A stretch of DNA of 64,000 nucleotides from Loxodes magnus (lineage: Eukaryota; Ciliophora; Karyorelictea; Loxodida; Loxodidae). A program made the position numbers and the translations under genes. Where the stretch lies: contig CAMPDV010000017.1 in NCBI GenBank assembly GCA_946699065.1, forward strand, positions 1,426,001 to 1,490,000. The letters are read 5' to 3'. Each line of letters starts with the position of its first letter. The first letter of the stretch is position 1. A model generated the notes under the pieces. The model had not been told where the DNA came from and did not search any database. It was given only the letters and a program-made list of their open reading frames with translations. Positions 12,043-61,401 of the stretch are shown piece by piece.

Positions 12043-12640
12043 ATGAATGATATATTAACGTTGAACTTAATTTATAGAAACGTTTAAATTTTTAAAAGAT
12101 AGTCAAGGTTGTTCTTCTTGGATCACTATCCCCACTTCCTTTAGCTTATTTATCTGCTTTTGCTTTTTTAAATCTTCTTTGCTATTTTTATCATCTGTCT
12201 GTTGTATATCGTAGTTCAAACATAAGTCTTTGATATTTTACCTTTCATTCTGTTATTTCATATAAAACTAGAACAGCATGAAGCTGCTGATGTAATTATA
12301 CCCAAACCTAAGAAAGCCAATACTCATTATGAAATACAATCCTTGCTAGCTAGTCTTCGTAATGAAAACTAGAGTATAGACAGTAGTAAAGTATATCTCT
12401 AGCATCTTAAACTTCAGGTATTTTTAGTTAGTTTTTCCAAAGTTTGATTATTCATACAACGAAGCTTTTAGAGTTAATAACGCAAATGCTAAGCAAGCTA
12501 TTTGCTAAGCTTTTTCAACTAGAAACAATATATTTAAGCCAGATAAATTAAAGTATAGAATAGTGTCTTGACCCTAGCACATAGTTTTAATTTCTTTGGT
12601 AATAAAAACATCAAATCCAATAAGCCACAAAACAGCATGA
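12043..12640 (+). CDS. Possible small membrane protein
   Basis: A reading of 190 codons results if one 25-nt intron (GTATTTTTAG...CCAAAG, 12416-12440 approximately) is removed. The second half (EAADVIIPKPKKANTHYEIQ, then FDYSYNEAFRVNNANAKQAI) looks like genuine protein. The first half is hydrophobic and lies opposite a Lys-rich minus-strand frame starting at 12261 (MKQQNERQNIKDLCLNYDIQ), so the N-terminus or even the strand of that part may be wrong. The end at TGA 12638-12640 overlaps the predicted 3' end of the TELO2-like gene. Function unknown. Confidence 0.35.
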
Positions 12641-15523
12641 ATTGAAACTAATATATCTACCAGGCAAGTTAATTAAATCATTACCATGTTACCTCTAAAA
12701 AGACCGAAATTTAATCCTAAACTAGCAGGCTTGAAAAAGTTTTCCATTGTTATTAGATCTTTGAATGTGTTTCTCTTAGTAGTTTGCATATTTTAAACTT
12801 ATAAATCTAGTAATAAAAAAGGAGTGCTAATGAAAAATTATCTCAGCATCAAATTTAATTGAAGGAACAGTTTTATTAATAATTATCTTATGTTAATTTA
12901 TAAAGTCAAGGACTTCGGTCCAATACTTAAACCCTATAAGTGCAAGGCGTTGGCATGTGTCATCGAAACTTTCTTGATAAACTCCTAAATTGAAAACTTA
13001 CTTTAAAAGAACCTTTGCAGCCTTTAAATATTTTAATACAGGTTATTAAATTACTCACAGTAGCTTATGAATAATGCTTGCTTATTTTAAGCATCACCAA
13101 ATAGATTCTAAGACAGTTAAGTGCTGAGAATTAATACTGATTTTAAAACTTGCGTTTGATGTAGATCGGATTCCTCAACTTATTCATTATAAGTTTTTAC
13201 AATTATGGATATAATCAAGTCCACGAACTAAGTGATCTCTTAACTGTAAAATAACTTAATACTGGCCATAAGGACATTTAGTGTTGCAAATACTTAAGAT
13301 TTTAGTTGCAGACTTCTTGTAAACTTTTCGTTAGTTGCTTTTGGTGAGTTAATAATCTCTATTATTCCATATCCAATTATTTGCCAGTGCTTATAAATTA
13401 GTTTTTGGTTATTAAGTATCTCTACTGTAGAACAAATTACTCCAAAAAGTACCAACTTTTAGCCAATAGAGCATAAATCACTTTATACTCTTTGCACTAT
13501 TAGCTTTATACCTTATGCTGGCTATTTTGATATTAGAACTGCTAAACTTTTTGTTTAATACTGATCAAAACTGTCCTAGTTAAATTTGTTTTGCAGAGTT
13601 ACTAAACATATGAAAAGTTCGTCATACAGTAGTTCTAAATCTGGAGGAGATTTATCAATTAAGTCTGGTAAGTGTCTTACAGTTTAGCTGAATCTATCAT
13701 AATCACTTGAATTAAGAGCCATCACACTTTCTTATAGATAAAAAGGAAGGGGAAAGTTGATCTCTTCTGATTCTTCATGTTCACTTGCTTTTTTCTCTTC
13801 ATTACTATTAATATCCAGATTTCTTGTTTCCTCACTTTCCACTTTTAAATTTAACTCCTATGATTCGCTATAAACTGGCTTATAAGCCCCTTCACTCTCA
13901 TTTAAACTCTACAAAGCTTATTCTTCATTAAAATTGTCAAACTGAAGAGGCGACTGAGCTTATATTTTTCTGCTAAGTTTCTACGCAATCAACTTTCCCT
14001 AATCCTAGATTTAGAAAGCAAGTTGCTAATCGAGTCTTAACTAAACTCCAGTCAAAAATTAGTTCAAGTTCTTACTAACCTACGCTTACTCAACGTGATC
14101 CATTAAGCAATAAATCAATAAGGTTAATCCTATGGATAAAGTAACTTACACTTGTTCTAAACTTAACTAAGCTTTGCCAATATACTTTAGTTCTCTCAAT
14201 AAACTAACAGGTTTTTGAAAAAAGAGTCAAGTAAGCCTCTTTAACAAATATCATCAGCTTCTTTTAAAATATTTACATAGAACTAGACAAACTTCTAGTC
14301 ACAAATAATAGGAGTTGCTACCACTTTCTGAGTTAAATAATTTTCCATTGCTTGGTTAGGAAGTTTAAAGACATTGAAAAGCAGTAAATGTTGATTCTAC
14401 ATGGTAGTGTAAATGAATTCTATAGCTTTCTACAGAATTTTATCCACTTGCTGTATCCTAAAAAACACTTCAACTATATAAAAGTTTCAGTTCAAATATT
14501 CTGTATTTTAAAATTTGGCTATTTCGTTCAAACTAACTGAGATTAGAAGATCAGAAAAGCCTAAAAGAACCAGCTTATTTAATATATAAGCTCCTATATC
14601 TACAATCTTTCTACTTTAAATAGTAACAGACTAGTGATATATTGACTAAATGAACTATTGAACAAAGTGAGTGAAGAACCATTTCTAGGTTATAGGATTT
14701 GATTACAGCTTATTTGATATTCTATCACATGTAGAGCAAACTAGATTCAGAAACTGGGAATAATTAGGTATCTAAACCTTCTACATACTCTGATCATCTT
14801 CTAGATAGTAAAACTCAAAGATCTCTTAGAATATTTATCTTCTAACCACCAAATTTTGGATCAAAAGCTAGATAAAAGAATTGGCAGCCTGTGATTAATC
14901 AAGGCTTTATATTTTCAAACTATTGACAAAGAATAGAATATTCTGGTATATTACAACAGCATTAATCCACTTATCCATGTATACATCAACTAAACATATG
15001 TCCAAACTCTAAATTTTTTGGTAGTACTATGAGACAACCTCTAGAGTGAATCTATTAAGCAGAATATCACAAAAATACTAATTTTCCTAAATTTACGTTC
15101 CTAAGGATTAATTTTAGTCCACTCTTTCTGTTATTATTTCCTTCATCTGCTTTATTTAATTTAGAGGGTTATCAATTGCTTTTAATTTCGATTACTAAAG
15201 GTATAAGGTTTCTATTAAATTTTCCATTAATTGATAGATTGTTTGCTATATTAAAGTCAGATACTAAAAGAATAGAATCGCTTTATAAGTTTTACTATAG
15301 AAGGGTTAGTTAATGAAATTACCAAAATATATAAAATCTATTTACTAAATTAAATCATCAAGCAACTTACTAACTGCTTCTTCATGAGGAGTCAGTCTAA
15401 AAACATAAGTAAAAAGCTTAAAAAACAAATAAAAGTAAATTAAAGAGCTGCCTTATTATATAAGCTCTTAAATAGTTGATGGAGTTAGATTCAAAAATGC
15501 ATGAAGTTAAAATGGACAATCAT
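12611..15523 (-). CDS. TELO2: TELO2-like protein (telomere length regulation, TTT complex)
   Basis: The conserved C-terminal Tel2 domain is clear around 13760-13430: INFPLPFYLQESV, VRHLPDLIDKSPPDLELLYD, ELFICLVTLQNKFN and AVLISKQPAQGIKLIV align in order with the Telomere_reg-2 region, including the LPDLI and NKF landmarks. Upstream sequence (VRRQIFQEIFEFYYLEDD, KWFFTHFVQQFIQ) is helical, as expected for the HEAT-repeat arms. TELO2 with TTI1/TTI2 and HSP90 stabilises PIKK kinases such as ATM, mTOR and SMG1. A 17-nt intron (GTAAGTTTTCAATTTAG, near 13000) restores the frame to a C-terminal tail, and a second small intron is needed near 14230. The 5' end is unsure: ATG 15523 needs a further small intron. 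The first in-frame TGA (12611) overlaps the plus-strand gene. Confidence 0.7.
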
Positions 15524-36740: not shown

Positions 36741-38582
36741 TCAAATTTATGTATTTTCGTTCTATGAATCAGTAGCACTCATTTCGTATTCTCTAACCTA
36801 TGTTGTACTCCTAGATGTTTTGTTAGGGTATTCTCTTTCTAGCTCTTACTCGTGATTCATTTCTTCGTCGAAAAATTCATATTACTTAATGCGAATAAAC
36901 AGACTTGAGATAAAGCCAATAATGGAGATAATTATAGGAATTAGAGACATCAAAATTCTTAGGAAATTAGGGTCTTCTTCTTGGAAATACTTTGAGTTAG
37001 TTATTACACATAAAGCTATTCCACTCAAAAGCTTATCAAAAATAGCGAAAGATCCATATACAAATCCTCCATCCTTTCCTTTTGGTCCAACAAAATCAGC
37101 AATGAGAGACATTGAAGTGGCTAGTTAAATACTAAGACCTAATCCAAGGATAAAGAATAGAATGAATATCCAAGCATAGTTGTCAGGAGTAAGGAAAATG
37201 TAAAATGTAACTAATGAAAAGCAGATTAGTAAAGTACCCATTCCATATACTATTTTTTTAGGAATTCATAAAACTAGTTGATTCATCGTAACTGAGCCTA
37301 TTAGACTTCCCATATACATAAGCATTGGGACAACTGCTAACTACCAAGGAGTCTTCAGTTTAGCCTAAGCTTTATTTGTAACTCCTCCTACATGAAGTCA
37401 AAGCGTTAAATAAAATGGATAAAGCGACATTGAGAGTACATAAGCAAGTCTTGCACCCATAAACACGAAAACGCATATATAGTAATCGCATTAAAATAAA
37501 ATCTCTTTTCATCCAACACGAGGCTATTCCACCTCCATTTCCTCTTCTATGATTCCTCTCTCAATCAATCTTTTATTAGGATACATAACGTTAGCATTAG
37601 TACCAGTAAATGGACTTATTGGGCTAGCTAAGCTTCTCTTTCTCATACTTCCAATTCCACTAGATGTACTTTATTTTTGGTTCTTATGCAATAGAATAGC
37701 TCCATGATCTGAATGTTAATAAGGGTTTTAGATAATAGGACTAGATATTGAATTTTCTTCTTAGTTGAATTAGAACTTATTTAACTCTGCGTAGCTTTAA
37801 GTCAAATTCTTCAATGTCTGCAGATTTTCTGCTTCTTGTTTAAGTCTGTTTGCCTCTTTAACTAAAAAAGGCTCATCGAGTGTTATCACAAAAAATCAGC
37901 ACAGAGGATAGCCTAGACATACTACTATTAAGGCAACATAATTAAACTAGTCCATAGGCTTGTCTGCTGCTCAAATCAGTATTAGAAATAAAATCAAGAC
38001 TGTTGCATTAGCAGTAAATGAAGCTGAATTTACGTATCTTATTAGTTTGTTTCTTACTTCTCAGTCATAGGTTAGAGATGGAACTAAACTCATATGGTTA
38101 ATTTAGACAAGAGCAAAGCCAATGTTTAGAAGCACTAAGTTAATTGAGTAATAAATAAAAGCAGGAATATCGAAACCGTTTACTTCACCGCATCATAAAC
38201 ATTGCTAGAACAGTAATAAAGTCGCAGCTGCAAAGAAAGAGCAGCCTACTATATACCAAGGCTTTCTTTTTCCTATTTTAGTGTCCGTTTTATCTGATAA
38301 ATAACCTGTAATTGGAGAAACAATTGAGTCAGTCATTTAACCAATCAGAGCACAAATTCCTGCTAATCCAGCATTTAGTCCTACAACATCAATAGTAAAA
38401 TATAAGAAAAATGTGAAAAATAAAGAAGCACCTAAGTCGTTTAAAAAGTGACCTAAAGAGTAAGCAAGAATATCTTTTTTACTCAAAGAGTCTAACTTAG
38501 GCTTTGCATATAACTCTTCAGGTTTTTCTATAGATTAATCGTTTGAACTAGAAATCTCTTTAAGTTCCTGACTTTTTTTCAT
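36741..38582 (-). CDS. MFSD12-like major facilitator transporter
   Basis: 613 residues, no intron, ATG 38580-38582 to TGA 36741-36743. After helix 1, FLNDLGASLFFTFFLYFTID and AGLAGICALIGQMTDSIVSP are followed by GYLSDKTDTKIGKRKPWYIV, the signature of the GPH/MFSD12 branch. Twelve hydrophobic segments are split by a long acidic Ser/Asn/Gln-rich cytosolic loop (about residues 245-345). The second half has GARLAYVLSMSLYPFYLTLW and SLIADFVGPKGKDGGFVYGS. Human MFSD12 imports cysteine into lysosomes and melanosomes; the same substrate here is only inferred. A polar 25-residue tail ends the protein. The first helix region starts near residue 40, after a hydrophilic N-terminus. Confidence 0.88.
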
Positions 38583-39434
38583 TGCCAATAACTTTATAAT
38601 TAACTTTTAAACTACTTTTTATTTTAATTTGGCTAAAGCAAAATGCCTAAGTTAGTTCGAAGTAATATACTACTATACTTCTACCTCTTATATAGAGTAT
38701 TTAAGATCTCATTATGCAATATATTTGCTTGAAATTTCTTACTCAAATAGATTCAAACTAGAAGCTAGCTTATTCAATCTGCTAAGCTATCTTGAAATAT
38801 AATCTATAAATAGAATAAATTATGTACTAACTAGATGAAATGACTCCTATTCCCATAAATGCTTTTAAGCATTTTATAGATATTTTAGTATACATCACTA
38901 GCATAGGATTGTATTAGCATTGTTAAAATATAATTTGATGGAATAAATAATGAAAAGTTACTACTTCATTAGCATTATTCTTATTCTATTTTTCGATATC
39001 TCAATATATTGATTTAACTCTGTATCTTATCCTTTTTATCTAGTCAATATAATGCTTAGACATCCTAAGATGAGTAAGTTAGTCTATTGGATTCTAATTA
39101 ATAAGCTAACTTCTTTTGATTTAATGGACGGTTTAAGTTCCCTTAAATGCTATTAGCTTTTCATTATCTCACTAAGCTACTACTATTGCTATATGCCTAC
39201 CTAGTCTTTCTTCAATTAGCTCTATAACTTAATCTAGGTTTAAGATTAGTTAGAGTTAGATTATGTAGTGCATTATAATTAGTCTTTATATAAAGCTAAT
39301 CTACCATTAAGTGGTTTCTTAAGCTTATCTTAATAAATAGCAGTATAAAGGGGTAGTATAAGGGGATAGGTACTGTTAGGAACTGATTTAATTTAAACTT
39401 ATAAATAGTCAGTTTTAGCGTAAAATTACTAATA
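38583..39434. other. Intergenic region between divergent genes
   Basis: About 850 AT-rich bases, presumably promoters of both neighbours. No motif recognised. Confidence 0.4.
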
Positions 39435-41472
39435 ATGATTTCTAGTTCTTCTAACATTCAGCTAGCTTAAGTCTCTGGATTGCTAGAAGTCTTACAAGGA
39501 GTACTTTAGTGTGGTAAATGTAAACTAGTCTTTAACGAGGCTGCTAGATAGCCACATTTACTTCCTTGTGGACATAATGTTTGTGAATAGTGTTTAATAG
39601 GTAACTATTAAGGTTCTACTTAAGGGTATAAAAGCTAGAAGATAAAGTGTGATAAGTGTGATAAAACTAGTTAGGTTAAAATGAATAAAGTTTACAAGAA
39701 CTTAGATTTCCTTACAATAGTCTAAAAGGCTAATCTAATCTAAGAATTGGAAGGTATTAAGAATGCATCTATATAGAAAACAGTAGTTGAGAGTTAGTAA
39801 AAAGAAGTGTAAGACTATCAAATTTAATATAATGAGGATGAAATCAAACAATAACTGGATTGTATAAACTGTGAGGAAGCATTGATAGTTGTTTTTACAA
39901 AGGATAAGAACTTTAACCTCTAAGAAAATTTGAAGTATCTGGAAAATGAATTGCAACTTAAAATTAACTCTGATTTTAAACGAAACCAAAATACTAATTA
40001 GATGATGTTCTAATTATAAAAGTCAAGAGTGCTAGAGATGTTTAAGATCCTATCAAAATTTTCCAAATTAACTGCTTAAATCACACAGACTAATTTCAAT
40101 ACTGTAGTGGTATAGAATCTTCCTACTGATGCAAAAGAATAAGAAGTAAAAGAGATTTTGGAGAAAGTAGGGACAGTTTAAGAATTTCACCTTTACAAGC
40201 ACTAGACAAAGAAGATATTAAAAGTATATGCACATGCATTTTATTCAAATAAGGAAGAAGCAAAACTAGCAGATGTGAGACTGAATAAGTATATGCTAAG
40301 GAATAACTAGCTTGCTGTAAAGCAGGATTGAATAGATTAAAAGAAGTAAAAATAGTTTCAATAGCAAGACTAAAACAAAGCATAGTCACAATTATATAAT
40401 ACTGTTTACGAATTAGTTGTCTAAAATGTGCCTGAAACTATTACACCCGAAAAATTGTACGAATACTTTGAGAAGTATGGAGCTATTTGTAAATTTCAGT
40501 ATTTCTTAGGAGATCAAAATAATCAATCTAAAACAGTTTCCGTATAGTTTGATAGGCTGAAACCTCTTTAAGGATTGCTTAAAAACTCCAAGCAGTTAAA
40601 TTAAAATACTTCTACTCTACTGAGAGATTGGGAGGGTAAATTTTTGATTTATAGATCTGAAGGAGACAAAAGATTTGATAAAAGAATCAGTTTAAGACAC
40701 TTAAAACGTACAAATGGTTTTGAATACACAAGAAAGGGTTTCTTAAAGTAACGAATAGAAAGCTTAAAGCTAGGTTAAGGAATAAGTTAGTTAAAACCAA
40801 AACTTTAAGAAGTCTTGAAGGGATTCTTTATTTGAAATTCTATTAAAAGCCTATCAAGAGTAAGTTTTAAAGTACAGACAAGCTTAATTTTTGCTGGATA
40901 AGTTACTAGATGTTAATTAAAACTAGGTTGAAATAGAAGCATATAACTATGTCATGAGCAAGAACCACTTGGAAATGAAAATACAGGAAATAAGAAAAGG
41001 ATAGTCAAACACTTAAAATTCTTAATTATTAAAATACTATTTAGCTGATTTTCTTAATGCTTTACTCTATACTATCTATTAAGTTCCTAATAACTTAAAT
41101 ACAAATAAGAACCTTTTAGTCTCAAGTGAAATAGATAAACCATAAGATAGTAGTATTAGAGTATATTACTTGACTAGCACTATATTTATCCCCTATTGTA
41201 TGATATATAATTAAGGTAGCAAATAACAATACCTAGAGAGTATAAAAATTACATTAACTAAATATAAGTTCGAAGTTATTGTTTATTATCCCTTCTAGCT
41301 AGTTTTTGCTCTAATTTGGTGGAGGAAATAGGGAATCACATATAATTCTAAATTATTAGATTACCTTATTACGTTTTCAATTACTAAGGGGATTAGTCTT
41401 GATAGGTAAGGAGATACTAGTTCTAAACAAGGATTTGTGTTTACCTCGATTAAAAAAGGAGTGCCTTGCTGA
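39435..41472 (+). CDS. RING - RRM - RRM - MLLE protein
   Basis: ATG 39435. A perfect N-terminal C3HC4 RING: Cys26, Cys29, Cys45, His47, Cys50, Cys53, Cys72, Cys75. RRM1 starts NTVVVQNLPTDAKEQEVKEI and runs to QLAVKQ. RRM2 is ELVVQNVPETITPEKLYEYF to KTVSVQFD. After a probable 25-nt intron (40738-40762) comes LFEILLKAYQEQVLKYRQAQ, then FLLDKLLDVNQNQVEIEAYN, aligning with the MLLE (PABC) domain of poly(A)-binding protein, including the LL pair and following helix. RRMs suggest mRNA binding, MLLE binds PAM2 peptides, and the RING suggests ubiquitin transfer, together hinting at mRNA-coupled protein turnover (compare CNOT4, RING plus one RRM). No in-frame TGA occurs before 41470, which overlaps the TTLL gene, so the true end is probably near 41050-41150. 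Confidence 0.75.
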
Positions 41473-43198
41473 TCTAATAAGAAATCATAGCCAAGAAGTT
41501 CAAATCCATGTTCTCTCTTTTATGGGTCTATTTTAAAACTAGCTGCATCTATTGAGTCTCTGATTATTGACTTAATCTGAGGTAAGATTTGAGCAATAAA
41601 ATTAATTTTATACTTGTTTTATAAGTATCTATTAAGCTCTTAGAAAGTGAGCTTATTTCCCTATTCATATCTTCCATAAGCTTCAGTGAATTTTTAAATT
41701 GCATCATTAGTCAAATGAATCTAAGGATCAAAGCTATCAACAGTAAATTCTACTGAACTTGTTCTTATATAGCCATCTTTACACTGAAATGCTAGCAATT
41801 TCTAGTTGAGGGAAGTTATGAGAACAAATATTCTAATGTCAAACTTCCTGTTATGGTATAGCATTGGTTTTATATACTCCTGTATTATCCATGTATGGCT
41901 TTTACCATTTTGGCAAACTCACTTCTAACTTACTATTTCATTTATTTTACTTATATCCTAGCATATTTGTATTCTATTACCTCTATTTGAAAACTCACCT
42001 GGCTTTACAATCCAAACATTCCAATCACTCTCTTTTTGTCTTCTTTGAAACTCTTCCGTAAATACCCAAAGATCATTACTCGTTTTAATATGAAAGGTTA
42101 GAGGTAAGAACATGATATAGTCTATCTAGTTTTCAGAGTAGTATTATTTCAAGCTTTTAAATAGATTCTTTTTGTTAGTAAGGCATGAATTATGCTCCAA
42201 ATGATTATATATAGTTTATTCTTCTGCCTACAGTTATTTTAATTTATGTATCATTTTTTTCTAAGGACTATCATCTATTAATGATATACCGTATTTCTCA
42301 ACAAGCTTTTAGATCTGTTATTTGCTTAAGTTAGCTAATTCTTTTTATAGATTAATATGAATTCAGCCTAGATCCTTGTACTAGCATTGATTATTAGACT
42401 TCTCACTATTGCTAAGAAATTGCTTTTAAAGTCAACTGCTTCAGATGAAATTTGCATTTTCAGGTTTATCTGCTTGTTGTCATCAAGATCTCTTTTTAAA
42501 TTAATCCTTCACAAGCTGAGAATTATTCCCACTAAAGATGTAATATTTATAGCTTCCATTTTCAGGTGGTTGGCTGATAAAGCCGTGACAAGCGCTAATA
42601 AGCAAATTGAGTTATTACTCAAGGAGTCGTTTGCATGCCATTTGAACTTCTTTATTTACTTTCATTATCTCCAAAATGGAAATCTGGCCAGCTTCCTTTC
42701 TAGTAGTTAGCTAAGATGAGTTAGAAGCTAATGGTTTCTTTTATACAGGTGCCTCTATATAATAGTTCCAATTTCTAAAAATGCTTGCAGTTTATTATTC
42801 CTCATTCTGCTCACTTAAGATATATCATTTCTAACCTTCTTTTTCTCTGTCTGATTATTGCCTTCTTACAGTAGCACAAGTTTCAGGTTTTAATGGCTTA
42901 ACCTTAGTTAAATTTTTATTAGAGTTGTAGCAAAATTTAATATTGGGATAGCAGTTATAGGCCTAACTAGGAGACCCATTAAACTAAAAGTCAATTTAGT
43001 TCTTTTCTTAAGTAGTTTTGTCTTCAGAGTTTTGGAAATCAATAACTTCAAATTATTTATATCCTCTACTGTGCTTTTTATTAAGAAGGTAAAGCTTCTT
43101 AAGTTTCTAGCTTAAAGGCTTTAAAAAACTCTTTCGCTAGTCTCTTTTTTCTATCGTCTTACTCCAGAAATCCTTCTAATAGTATTTTTACTAAACAT
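41122..43198 (-). CDS. Tubulin-tyrosine-ligase-like protein, TTLL3/10-type
   Basis: About 678 residues with two introns assumed: 23 nt (GTTTTTTAAAGCCTTTAAGC.., near 43122-43100) and 17 nt (GTAATCTAATAATTTAG, near 41363-41347). After a polar N-terminal 190 residues come YKYYIFSGNNSQLVKDQFKK, NHLEHNSCLTNKKNLFKSL, IDYIMFLPLTFHIKTSNDL, WNVWIVKPGEFSNRG, TWIIQEYIKPMLYHNRKFDI and FLIEVNTNPCLE, the ATP-grasp order of TTLL enzymes. The NH-x-LT-K-x-L block resembles TTLL3/8/10 glycylases, so a ciliary tubulin glycylase is likely but not certain. Many Trp are TGA. The last clear match is CDSLFPPP; the TGA at 41122 may be beyond the true end. Confidence 0.82.
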
Positions 43199-45348: not shown

Positions 45349-47482
45349 ATGTCATTAAAGCTGGTGAGTCTTCTTTTACTCTTTAGATTGTAGGTCATAC
45401 AAATGAACCTATCGCTTAAATTACCAAAATGATCAAACAGTTCGCTCCAGTTCCTTTGAGTGAAATCGTTGAAGACGCCAATATTTAGACAGATCTTCTT
45501 GATAATTCAATTCCAATTCTGTAGATTGATAGTCCTGCTCAGTAGGTAAAAGGATGTGGGGCTATTGCAAGATACTGTAAGTTATTACTTTAGTGGCAAG
45601 ATAGTATGCAGTAGAGCTATATGGAAAAACTATTTTCGATCAGTCTCTCGTAGATTAATGGATTGATTTGATGTAACACTTCTAATTGGAATAAGAACCT
45701 GATAAAGAAAGAGTTACCTCTACACTCAAATCTCTAGATTCACTAGCTCCAAAATCTAAATTCTTAGTAGGAGGAAACTTAACTTTAGCAGACTTATTTT
45801 TGATATAATCAACTTCGCATGCATTTTCATGTGTAAGATTTAATATTTAGACTGAAGAAGAAGTGAGGAAGAAATAGAAGGCTATTTTCAAATGGTATGG
45901 CTAAATCATGACTACACCTCAAATTAGTTAACTCTCAACAGAATTAGGTCTTCTTACTGTTGCTGCTTAAAAAGAATAAAAAGAGGTAAAGCAACAAGTA
46001 TCAGCATAGCCAAAGAAAGAAGCTCAAGTTAACAGTTTAGTTCATATTTTACCCGAAAAGTCTTGGGGAGGAAGATATCGCATATAATACGTACTTGAAA
46101 ATTGGGAAAACTATATTGATTAAATAATTTTAGTTGCTGGATGGACAAAAACAATAAGATTCCAAGGAAATGAAAAAATAGCTTTTATTGAATTAAACGA
46201 TGGAAGTACAGTAGAAAATATTCAAATAGTTGTTGATAATTGCATGGAGGAATTCAGTAAACTTAAAAACAGTGCAAATGGAGGAAGTCTTAAAGTGAAA
46301 GGTAAAGTAATTCGGTCTTTAGGCTAAGGTTAACATATCGAAATGTAAGTAAATGATGTTAAAGAACATTTCTGCAAAGTAGTTGGAACATGTGATTAAT
46401 CTGAATATCCCTTGTCTAAAAAGGATCATAAAATGGAAACTCTTAGAACTATAGCTCATTTACGTCCTAGAACATAAATTATGTCTGCAATAATGAGAGT
46501 TCGAAATGCATGTGCCTTTGCTACTCACAAATTTTTCCAAGAAAGAGGCTTTTTATATATACATACTCCAATTATCACGGCCTCAGATTGTGAAGGAGCT
46601 GGAGAAATGTTCCAAGTAAGCACAATAATGCCTCCATAAAACAAAACTGTAGAGATTGACTATTCAAAAGAATTTTTCACTAGACCAGCCTTTTTAACAG
46701 TATCAGGTCAACTTGCTGTAGAAAACTACGCCTGTGCTCTTTGTGATGTATATACTTTTGGCCCAACTTTCAGAGCTGAAAATTCTCACACAAGTAGACA
46801 TTTAGCTGAGTTTTGGATGATTGAGCCTGAAATTTGTTTTGCTGAATTGGAAGATGATATGGAATGTGCAGAAGCTTACTTAAAGTTCTGCGTTGAATAT
46901 TGTTTGACTAACTTGATGAATGACTTAAAGTTCTTTGAAGAAAAATGTGAAAAAGGATTGATAGCAAGACTTTAGAATGTAGTACAAAACAATTTTGCTA
47001 GAATAACTTATACTGAAGCTATTGAGCTAGTAAATGCTTGTCCAGATAAATAAACTAAATTCAAAACAGTACCTCAATGGGGTGAAGATATGAACTCTGA
47101 ACATGAAAGGTATATTGCTGAAGAACTAATAAAGGGACCTGTCATCGTTTATAACTATCCTAAAGAATTCAAAGCCTTCTACATGAAGTTAAATGAAGAC
47201 AACAAAACAGTGAGAGCTATGGATATTTTGGTACCTAAGATTGGAGAAGTAATAGGAGGAAGTTAAAGAGAGGATAATTTAGAAAGATTAGATGAAATGC
47301 TAAGATACAAAAATCTAAAGGTAGAAGATTACTGGTGGTATAGAGATCTAAGAAAGTATGGAACAGTACCACATGCTGGATTCGGACTCGGATTTGAGAG
47401 ATTGGTAATGATGATAACAGGAGTTGAGAACATCAGAGATGTTATACCATATCCCAGGTATCCAGGCCACGCTGAGTTTTGA
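45349..47482 (+). CDS. Asparaginyl-tRNA synthetase with N-terminal GST-like domain
   Basis: 697 residues after removing introns 45364-45386 (23 nt) and 45577-45593 (17 nt); the total is divisible by three. Residues 1-190 form a GST-like fold: [49 protein letters not shown] (the IARYLA landmark), then [20 protein letters not shown] (the N-cap of the C-lobe). A Lys/Gln linker leads to the OB-fold ([26 protein letters not shown]). The class IIb core has [17 protein letters not shown], motif 2 [20 protein letters not shown] and motif 3 [11 protein letters not shown], ending RYPGHAEF at TGA. It charges tRNA-Asn with asparagine in the cytosol. Usual AsnRS carries a different N-terminal extension, so the GST fold is notable. 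Confidence 0.95.

Positions 47483-60267: not shown

Positions 60268-61401
<1,134 letters not shown>

Follow-up and report, generated by a model that had tools for sequence, protein, structure and literature searches.

The Loxodes magnus window analysed here, a stretch of 64,000 nucleotides (contig CAMPDV010000017.1, positions 1,426,001–1,490,000, forward strand, assembly GCA_946699065.1), contains one of four genes that we interpret, with a probability of roughly 0.7, as a small Loxodes family encoding a TRIM-type RING finger followed by a rear half derived from poly(A)-binding protein (PABP). This rear half comprises an RRM3-like RRM, a second RRM that is degenerate, a linker and an MLLE domain that has diverged. 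The layout, the family, the RING and RRM matches, the similarity to MLLE in two of the paralogs and the intron site held in common with PABP MLLEs were all computed in this work. A preliminary description of the same DNA, made from the letters alone, has been confirmed in part: the gene is real and the list of domains proposed for it was largely right; the gene model was wrong.

The organism is reported to use code table 27, in which TAA and TAG are read as Gln and TGA as Trp or as a context-dependent stop, and to have introns with a modal length of 17 nt, 93% of which are 25 nt or shorter (PMC11441545). The same source gives the size of the MAC assembly as 706 Mb; the assembly searched here amounted to 705.7 Mb. 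A single frame from the ATG at 39435 spans the RING and both RRMs and contains one in-frame TGA, at 40329. In the alignment, the column of this codon holds W/Y/Y/F across the four family members, which fits a reading of TGA as Trp. Introns were picked by eye from the GT-AG candidates, according to the agreement between the window gene and three paralogs, here designated L010, L011 and L033. The intron just after RRM2 is common to the four genes and measures 19, 37, 28 and 19 nt (window, L010, L011 and L033, respectively), as is the intron inside the tail, at 18, 21, 20 and 16 nt in the same order. From this comparison, the two introns listed in Table 1 replace the one at 40738–40762 that had been proposed earlier; the latter, being 25 nt long, shifts the frame in the same way as the 19-nt intron, which is why it appeared to work. 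Since the second intron of the window gene is a multiple of three in length, the frame by itself is no proof of it.

Table 1. Features of the RING-RRM gene in the window (positions counted from the first letter of the window)
Feature	Position	Strand	Basis or remark
Exon 1	39435..40635	+	start codon through RRM2, 400 codons + 1 nt
C3HC4 RING finger, residues 26-75	39510..39659	+	Pfam zf-RING_UBOX
Conserved block, about 85 residues	39834..40088	+	aligns in four members
RRM1, closest to PABP RRM3	40104..40313	+	Pfam RRM_1; PDB; PABP loci
RRM2, divergent	40404..40634	+	second RRM_1 stretch; family profile
Intron 1, GTAAATTTTTGATTTATAG, 19 nt	40636..40654	+	required by the frame; also at this place in L010, L011 and L033
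Exon 2: linker, then helix 1 of the putative MLLE homologue	40655..40859	+	comparison with paralogs
Intron 2, GTAAGTTTTAAAGTACAG, 18 nt	40860..40877	+	codon and phase as for the intron of five Loxodes PABP MLLEs
Exon 3: remainder of the putative MLLE homologue	40878..41048	+	end putative

At the 3' end, GT-AG candidates of 15–45 nt with donors between 40901 and 41060 were considered, among which only one, of 41 nt, keeps the whole tail and provides a near stop. This candidate (41004–41044), the splicing of which is required by the stop TGA at 41046–41048, is long for the Loxodes genome, and an end of the gene near 41048 is as yet unproven. The end at 41472 given in the preliminary description falls inside the coding region of a gene of the TTL (tubulin-tyrosine ligase) family that lies antisense to the RING gene and converges on it (match at 41364–41903, minus strand; PF03133, E 2.6e-39). 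As this match reaches down to about 41364, the coding regions would overlap and an end at 41472 is unlikely. Elsewhere in the window, we observed a class II (D/K/N) aminoacyl-tRNA synthetase that has an OB fold and, at its N terminus, a GST_C-like domain (45554–47482, plus strand), as well as matches to the actin family (60514–61401, plus), to Telomere_reg-2 (12103–14199, minus) and to an MFS_2 transporter (38193–38708, minus).

A genome search with the first exon of the window gene returned 96 matches; besides the window itself, only L010 (contig C46) and L011 (C100) extended into the RRMs. The third relative, L033 (C35), was found by a genome search with L010. When aligned, the four genes displayed the same domain layout and both intron sites, which indicates that the RING, the RRMs and the tail constitute one gene. 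The earlier claim of a RING, two RRMs and a tail in one chain is thereby backed, and the MLLE-like part probably does not belong to a separate gene. A genome search with the L010 tail matched only itself and L011, and one with the window stretch 40763–41101 matched only itself. Two shorter relatives, L043 (C128:553326–553709, minus strand) and L045 (C32:932933–933151, minus strand), were seen by eye to have a RING of the same type and a single RRM2-like domain but to lack RRM1; an MLLE tail was not recognised by eye in the 3.2–3.4 kb of sequence at these loci. Dozens of similar RING domains are also repeated along each of the contigs C575, C1002, C582, C1863 and C1867, apparently forming a large clustered family.

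The RING finger of the window protein scored 28.3 bits with Pfam zf-RING_UBOX against a cut-off of 25.2, in agreement with the RING recognised earlier, its frame being open if the TGA at 40329 encodes Trp. Among the paralogs, L010 also passes the cut-off (26.8 bits), and L011 (12.2 bits) and L033 (19.0 bits) fall below it. Eight zinc ligands in C3HC4 order (C26, C29, C45, H47, C50, C53, C72 and C75) are invariant in the alignment of all four members, and the best RING in the PDB for the exon-1 profile was that of TRIM32 (E 1.9e-10). By eye, the four members have neither the hydrophobic residue in CxIC nor the Pro in CPxC, and they also lack the linchpin Arg. E3 ubiquitin ligase activity is predicted for the family from the zinc ligands only. 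The block between the RING and RRM1 is strongly conserved between L010 and L011, and its best PDB match was unrelated (E 0.16). The possibility that this block hides a third RRM found no support in the profile comparison, in which 48 of 200 shuffles scored as high.

The two RRMs of the preliminary description were borne out by a Pfam RRM_1 score of 62.1 bits over two stretches of the window protein, both in frame from the ATG. Each paralog had a single RRM_1 stretch in Pfam, the second RRM being assigned there through the alignment and the family profile. This RRM2 profile, built from six sequences, matched NOP4 (E 6.5e-7), PRP24 and Pab1 in the PDB and outscored 200 of 200 shuffles when compared with RRM. 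The best PDB match of the exon-1 profile was yeast Pab1 residues 218–390 (E 3e-18), which we take to be RRM3-RRM4, and the RRM1 profile by itself was best on residues 218–295 of the same protein. Outside the family, RRM1 of L011 matched seven places in the genome, five of which have four RRMs with an MLLE downstream; these five loci were for that reason considered to be PABP genes. The family RRM1 profile scored highest on the third RRM in all five, a preference that is partly by construction because the loci were fetched through the L011 RRM1 match. Among eight loci fetched through their MLLE instead, RRM matches were present in three (L001, L002 and L004), where the penultimate RRM was the best in every case, in L002 narrowly; the other five had no RRM match in the stretch examined. 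In a tree of 39 RRM rows, RRM1 was not joined with PABP RRM3 and its origin was not placed. An assignment of RRM2 as PABP RRM4 found no support, RRM2 also scoring best on the third PABP RRM. At the place corresponding to intron 1, the reading frame of the five PABP loci is unbroken. By eye, the RNP motifs of the family are partly degenerate; RNA binding by these domains, that of poly(A) included, is putative.

The tail was evaluated against the Pfam MLLE family (PF00658), the cut-off of which is 27 bits. No MLLE match was obtained with Pfam for the window protein, with either the earlier splicing or the revised one, or for L033. For the tails of L010 and L011 submitted alone, MLLE was the top Pfam match but below the cut-off (14.9 bits, E 0.028, and 16.2 bits, E 0.01, respectively); as full-length proteins, L010 had no MLLE listed and L011 had MLLE at E 0.1. 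A genome-wide Pfam search for MLLE identified 15 places, none of them in the RING-RRM family. Three of these at least 15 places lie close together on C15 (e.g., C15:1490024–1498399), which suggests that PABP genes have been multiplied in this genome. When the tails of the three paralogs, combined in one profile, were searched against 177,635 PDB sequences, nothing fell below E 0.01; INO4, a bHLH protein, came first (E 0.019), followed by the MLLE domains of UBR5 (E 0.033) and HYD (E 0.042), these two being mutually related, with HYD orthologue-like.

Comparison by hhalign with eight Loxodes MLLEs that pass the Pfam cut-off, upstream RRMs having been seen in three of these, gave a probability of 87.7% for the three-paralog profile, with none of 400 column shuffles as high. 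Taken singly, L010 reached 83.8% and L011 85.2% (0/200 shuffles as high for each). The matches of L033 alone (3.9%; 7 of 200 shuffles as high) and of the window tail (6.7%; 2 of 400) were weak. Against MLLE and the paralogs together, 6 of 400 shuffles were as high as the window tail, and against the paralog profile alone 284 of 400, which gives no support. In a MAFFT alignment of the L010 tail, with its intron retained, and five Loxodes MLLEs, the gap in the five MLLE rows coincided precisely with the seven residues encoded by that intron; the same alignment misplaced the L033 fragment. From these comparisons we conclude that the tail is a putative divergent homologue of MLLE, the conclusion being weakly supported in the window copy. 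With regard to the MLLE domain originally assigned to the window protein, that copy, taken by itself, gives no HMM support; the assignment is supported indirectly, by the L010 and L011 profiles and by the intron site that the family has in common with MLLEs of PABPs.

This intron site is the strongest evidence for MLLE homology. The tail intron lies at the same codon and in the same phase in the five split PABP MLLEs and in the four family members, that is, in all nine genes read; it is in phase 2, and the codon that it splits stands two codons ahead of the A with which the KITGM helix begins. The split site reads P-Q^x-A-G-K in four of the PABPs and P-A^M-A-G-K in L062, and P-Q^x-A in three family members and Q-E^Q-A in the window. 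The length of the intron forces the frame in seven of the nine genes, the window (18) and L010 (21) being those in which it is not forced. Working from protein sequence alone, hhalign brought the split codons together when it aligned the window tail to MLLE. An intron is absent from the split site in eight further Loxodes MLLEs; of the 15 MLLE places, the two on C27 and C3 stand outside this count.

Structure prediction gave different pictures for the two tails modelled. The AlphaFold model of the window tail, computed from two sequences with six intron residues retained, is a single long helix (pLDDT 90.2, pTM 0.47). For the L010 tail, with three sequences, the model is a bundle of helices at residues 2–12, 15–21, 25–35, 40–45 and 47–61 with MLLE-like spacing (pTM 0.65; mean pLDDT 82.3, against 79.4 to 54.8 for the remaining four models), in which helix 15–21 consists mostly of intron peptide. 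A Foldseek search with this model returned 23 matches, none of which reached significance: the first was a phage repressor complex (Stl), which is unrelated, the Pab1 MLLE second (E 2.3, which was also the best E value, and TM 0.58) and the PABPC1 MLLE nineteenth.

A different reading, in which a RING protein with two RRMs carries an unrelated helical or coiled-coil tail and the resemblance to MLLE is convergent or due to chance, would accommodate the lack of a Pfam MLLE match in the window protein and L033, the single long helix of the window model, the failure of the window tail to rise above shuffles against the paralog profile, and the position of INO4 at the top of the PDB search. We regard this reading as unlikely, given that the tails of L010 and L011 match MLLE with no shuffle as high in 200 each, that the UBR5 and HYD MLLEs rank second and third in the PDB, and that four of four members have the intron at the codon and phase of five PABP MLLEs. 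It is less likely still that the window copy is degenerating, its RING and RRMs still being encoded, its MLLE having decayed to a helix, and the function being kept by L010 and L011. Such a decay would be consistent with the window tail and L033 being the poorest MLLE matches and with a near stop that is reached only via an unusually long 41-nt intron; opposed to it are an exon 1 that is open for 400 codons, the retention of the zinc ligands, and the fact that the sole TGA of exon 1 falls in a conserved aromatic column.

A relative of CNOT4 (Not4) that acquired a tail is highly improbable: CNOT4 likewise has a RING followed by an RRM in one chain, but its RING is of the C4C4 type and it has one RRM, a C3H1 finger and no MLLE, differing in each of these from the window family, whose RING is C3HC4 and nearest to TRIM32 in the PDB. 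Moreover, the Pfam matches of the window protein at E values up to 10 do not include zf-RING_4, which is far below the cut-off in L010 and L033. In Pfam, zf-RING_4 is above the cut-off at L038 and L039, and L039 (C14:190565), where an RRM and a C3H1-like stretch are seen by eye, is the better CNOT4 candidate; its existence as a separate locus indicates that the window gene is not CNOT4.

Returning to the reading of the tail as an MLLE homologue, the PAM2 pocket of MLLE is described as being formed by the KITGMLLE helix together with a characteristic Gly (PMC9249222). At the KITGM positions, the window protein has F-L-L-D-K, L010 and L011 have V-L-T-E-L, and L033 has E-I-M-Q-Y; K, G and M are replaced in all four members, T is kept in L010 and L011, and I in L033. 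The characteristic Gly is possibly, on our assumption, that of LGE in helix 2, and if this is the pocket Gly, its position holds R, Y, Y and E according to an ungapped extension of the alignment. Since the KITGM core has largely been lost, canonical PAM2 binding by the tail appears unlikely, and the binding of PAM2 proteins suggested in the preliminary description is not favoured.

The family is similar to PABPC1 and Pab1 in having an RRM3-like RRM, a second RRM, a linker and a C-terminal putative MLLE homologue, with the intron site as in five Loxodes PABP genes. It differs from them in the RING at the front, in having two RRMs rather than four, and in the replacement of most of the KITGM core. 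With two RRMs and a divergent MLLE, it does not have the four RRMs and canonical MLLE that define a PABP. UBR5 and HYD, which are HECT E3 ligases with an MLLE, combine a ligase-type domain with MLLE in one chain, as is proposed for the family, and provided the best MLLE structures for the paralog tail profile; the window family, by contrast, has a RING in place of HECT and possesses RRMs in addition, and neither a HECT domain nor a UBR box was among the Pfam matches of the respliced window protein. Rrm4 of Ustilago maydis is comparable as a non-PABP RRM protein with divergent MLLEs, unlike the window family in that it has three RRMs and three MLLEs and no reported RING. In MLLE1 and MLLE2 of Rrm4, the characteristic PAM2-pocket Gly is reported to be replaced by Ser and Arg (PMC9249222), and these replacements are comparable to the changes in the window family. 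The same 2022 account names PABPC1, UBR5 and Rrm4-type proteins as the only ones in which MLLE had been described (PMC9249222). A survey of the literature on MLLE with RRM, RING, E3 ligase and ciliates yielded no RING-RRM-MLLE protein, as judged by titles and the beginnings of abstracts.

The combination of domains may link RNA binding to protein ubiquitination. The RRMs would place the protein on an mRNA or mRNP, the MLLE-like bundle would dock a partner via a surface altered from the PAM2 pocket, and the RING would recruit an E2, whereupon the partner or a neighbour could be ubiquitinated. As a tentative extension, one that we consider possible though somewhat doubtful, the family may represent RING ligases of a new class that are directed to mRNPs; these would have arisen by the grafting of a TRIM-type RING onto the rear half of a PABP, with an MLLE that has exchanged PAM2 for another peptide. 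To PABP, UBR5 and Rrm4 as settings of MLLE, a RING-RRM-MLLE family would add a further one, with the common intron as a direct trace connecting a PABP domain to a ligase-like protein, and it offers a testable case of how an MLLE changes its peptide and of how RNA binding could be coupled to ubiquitination.
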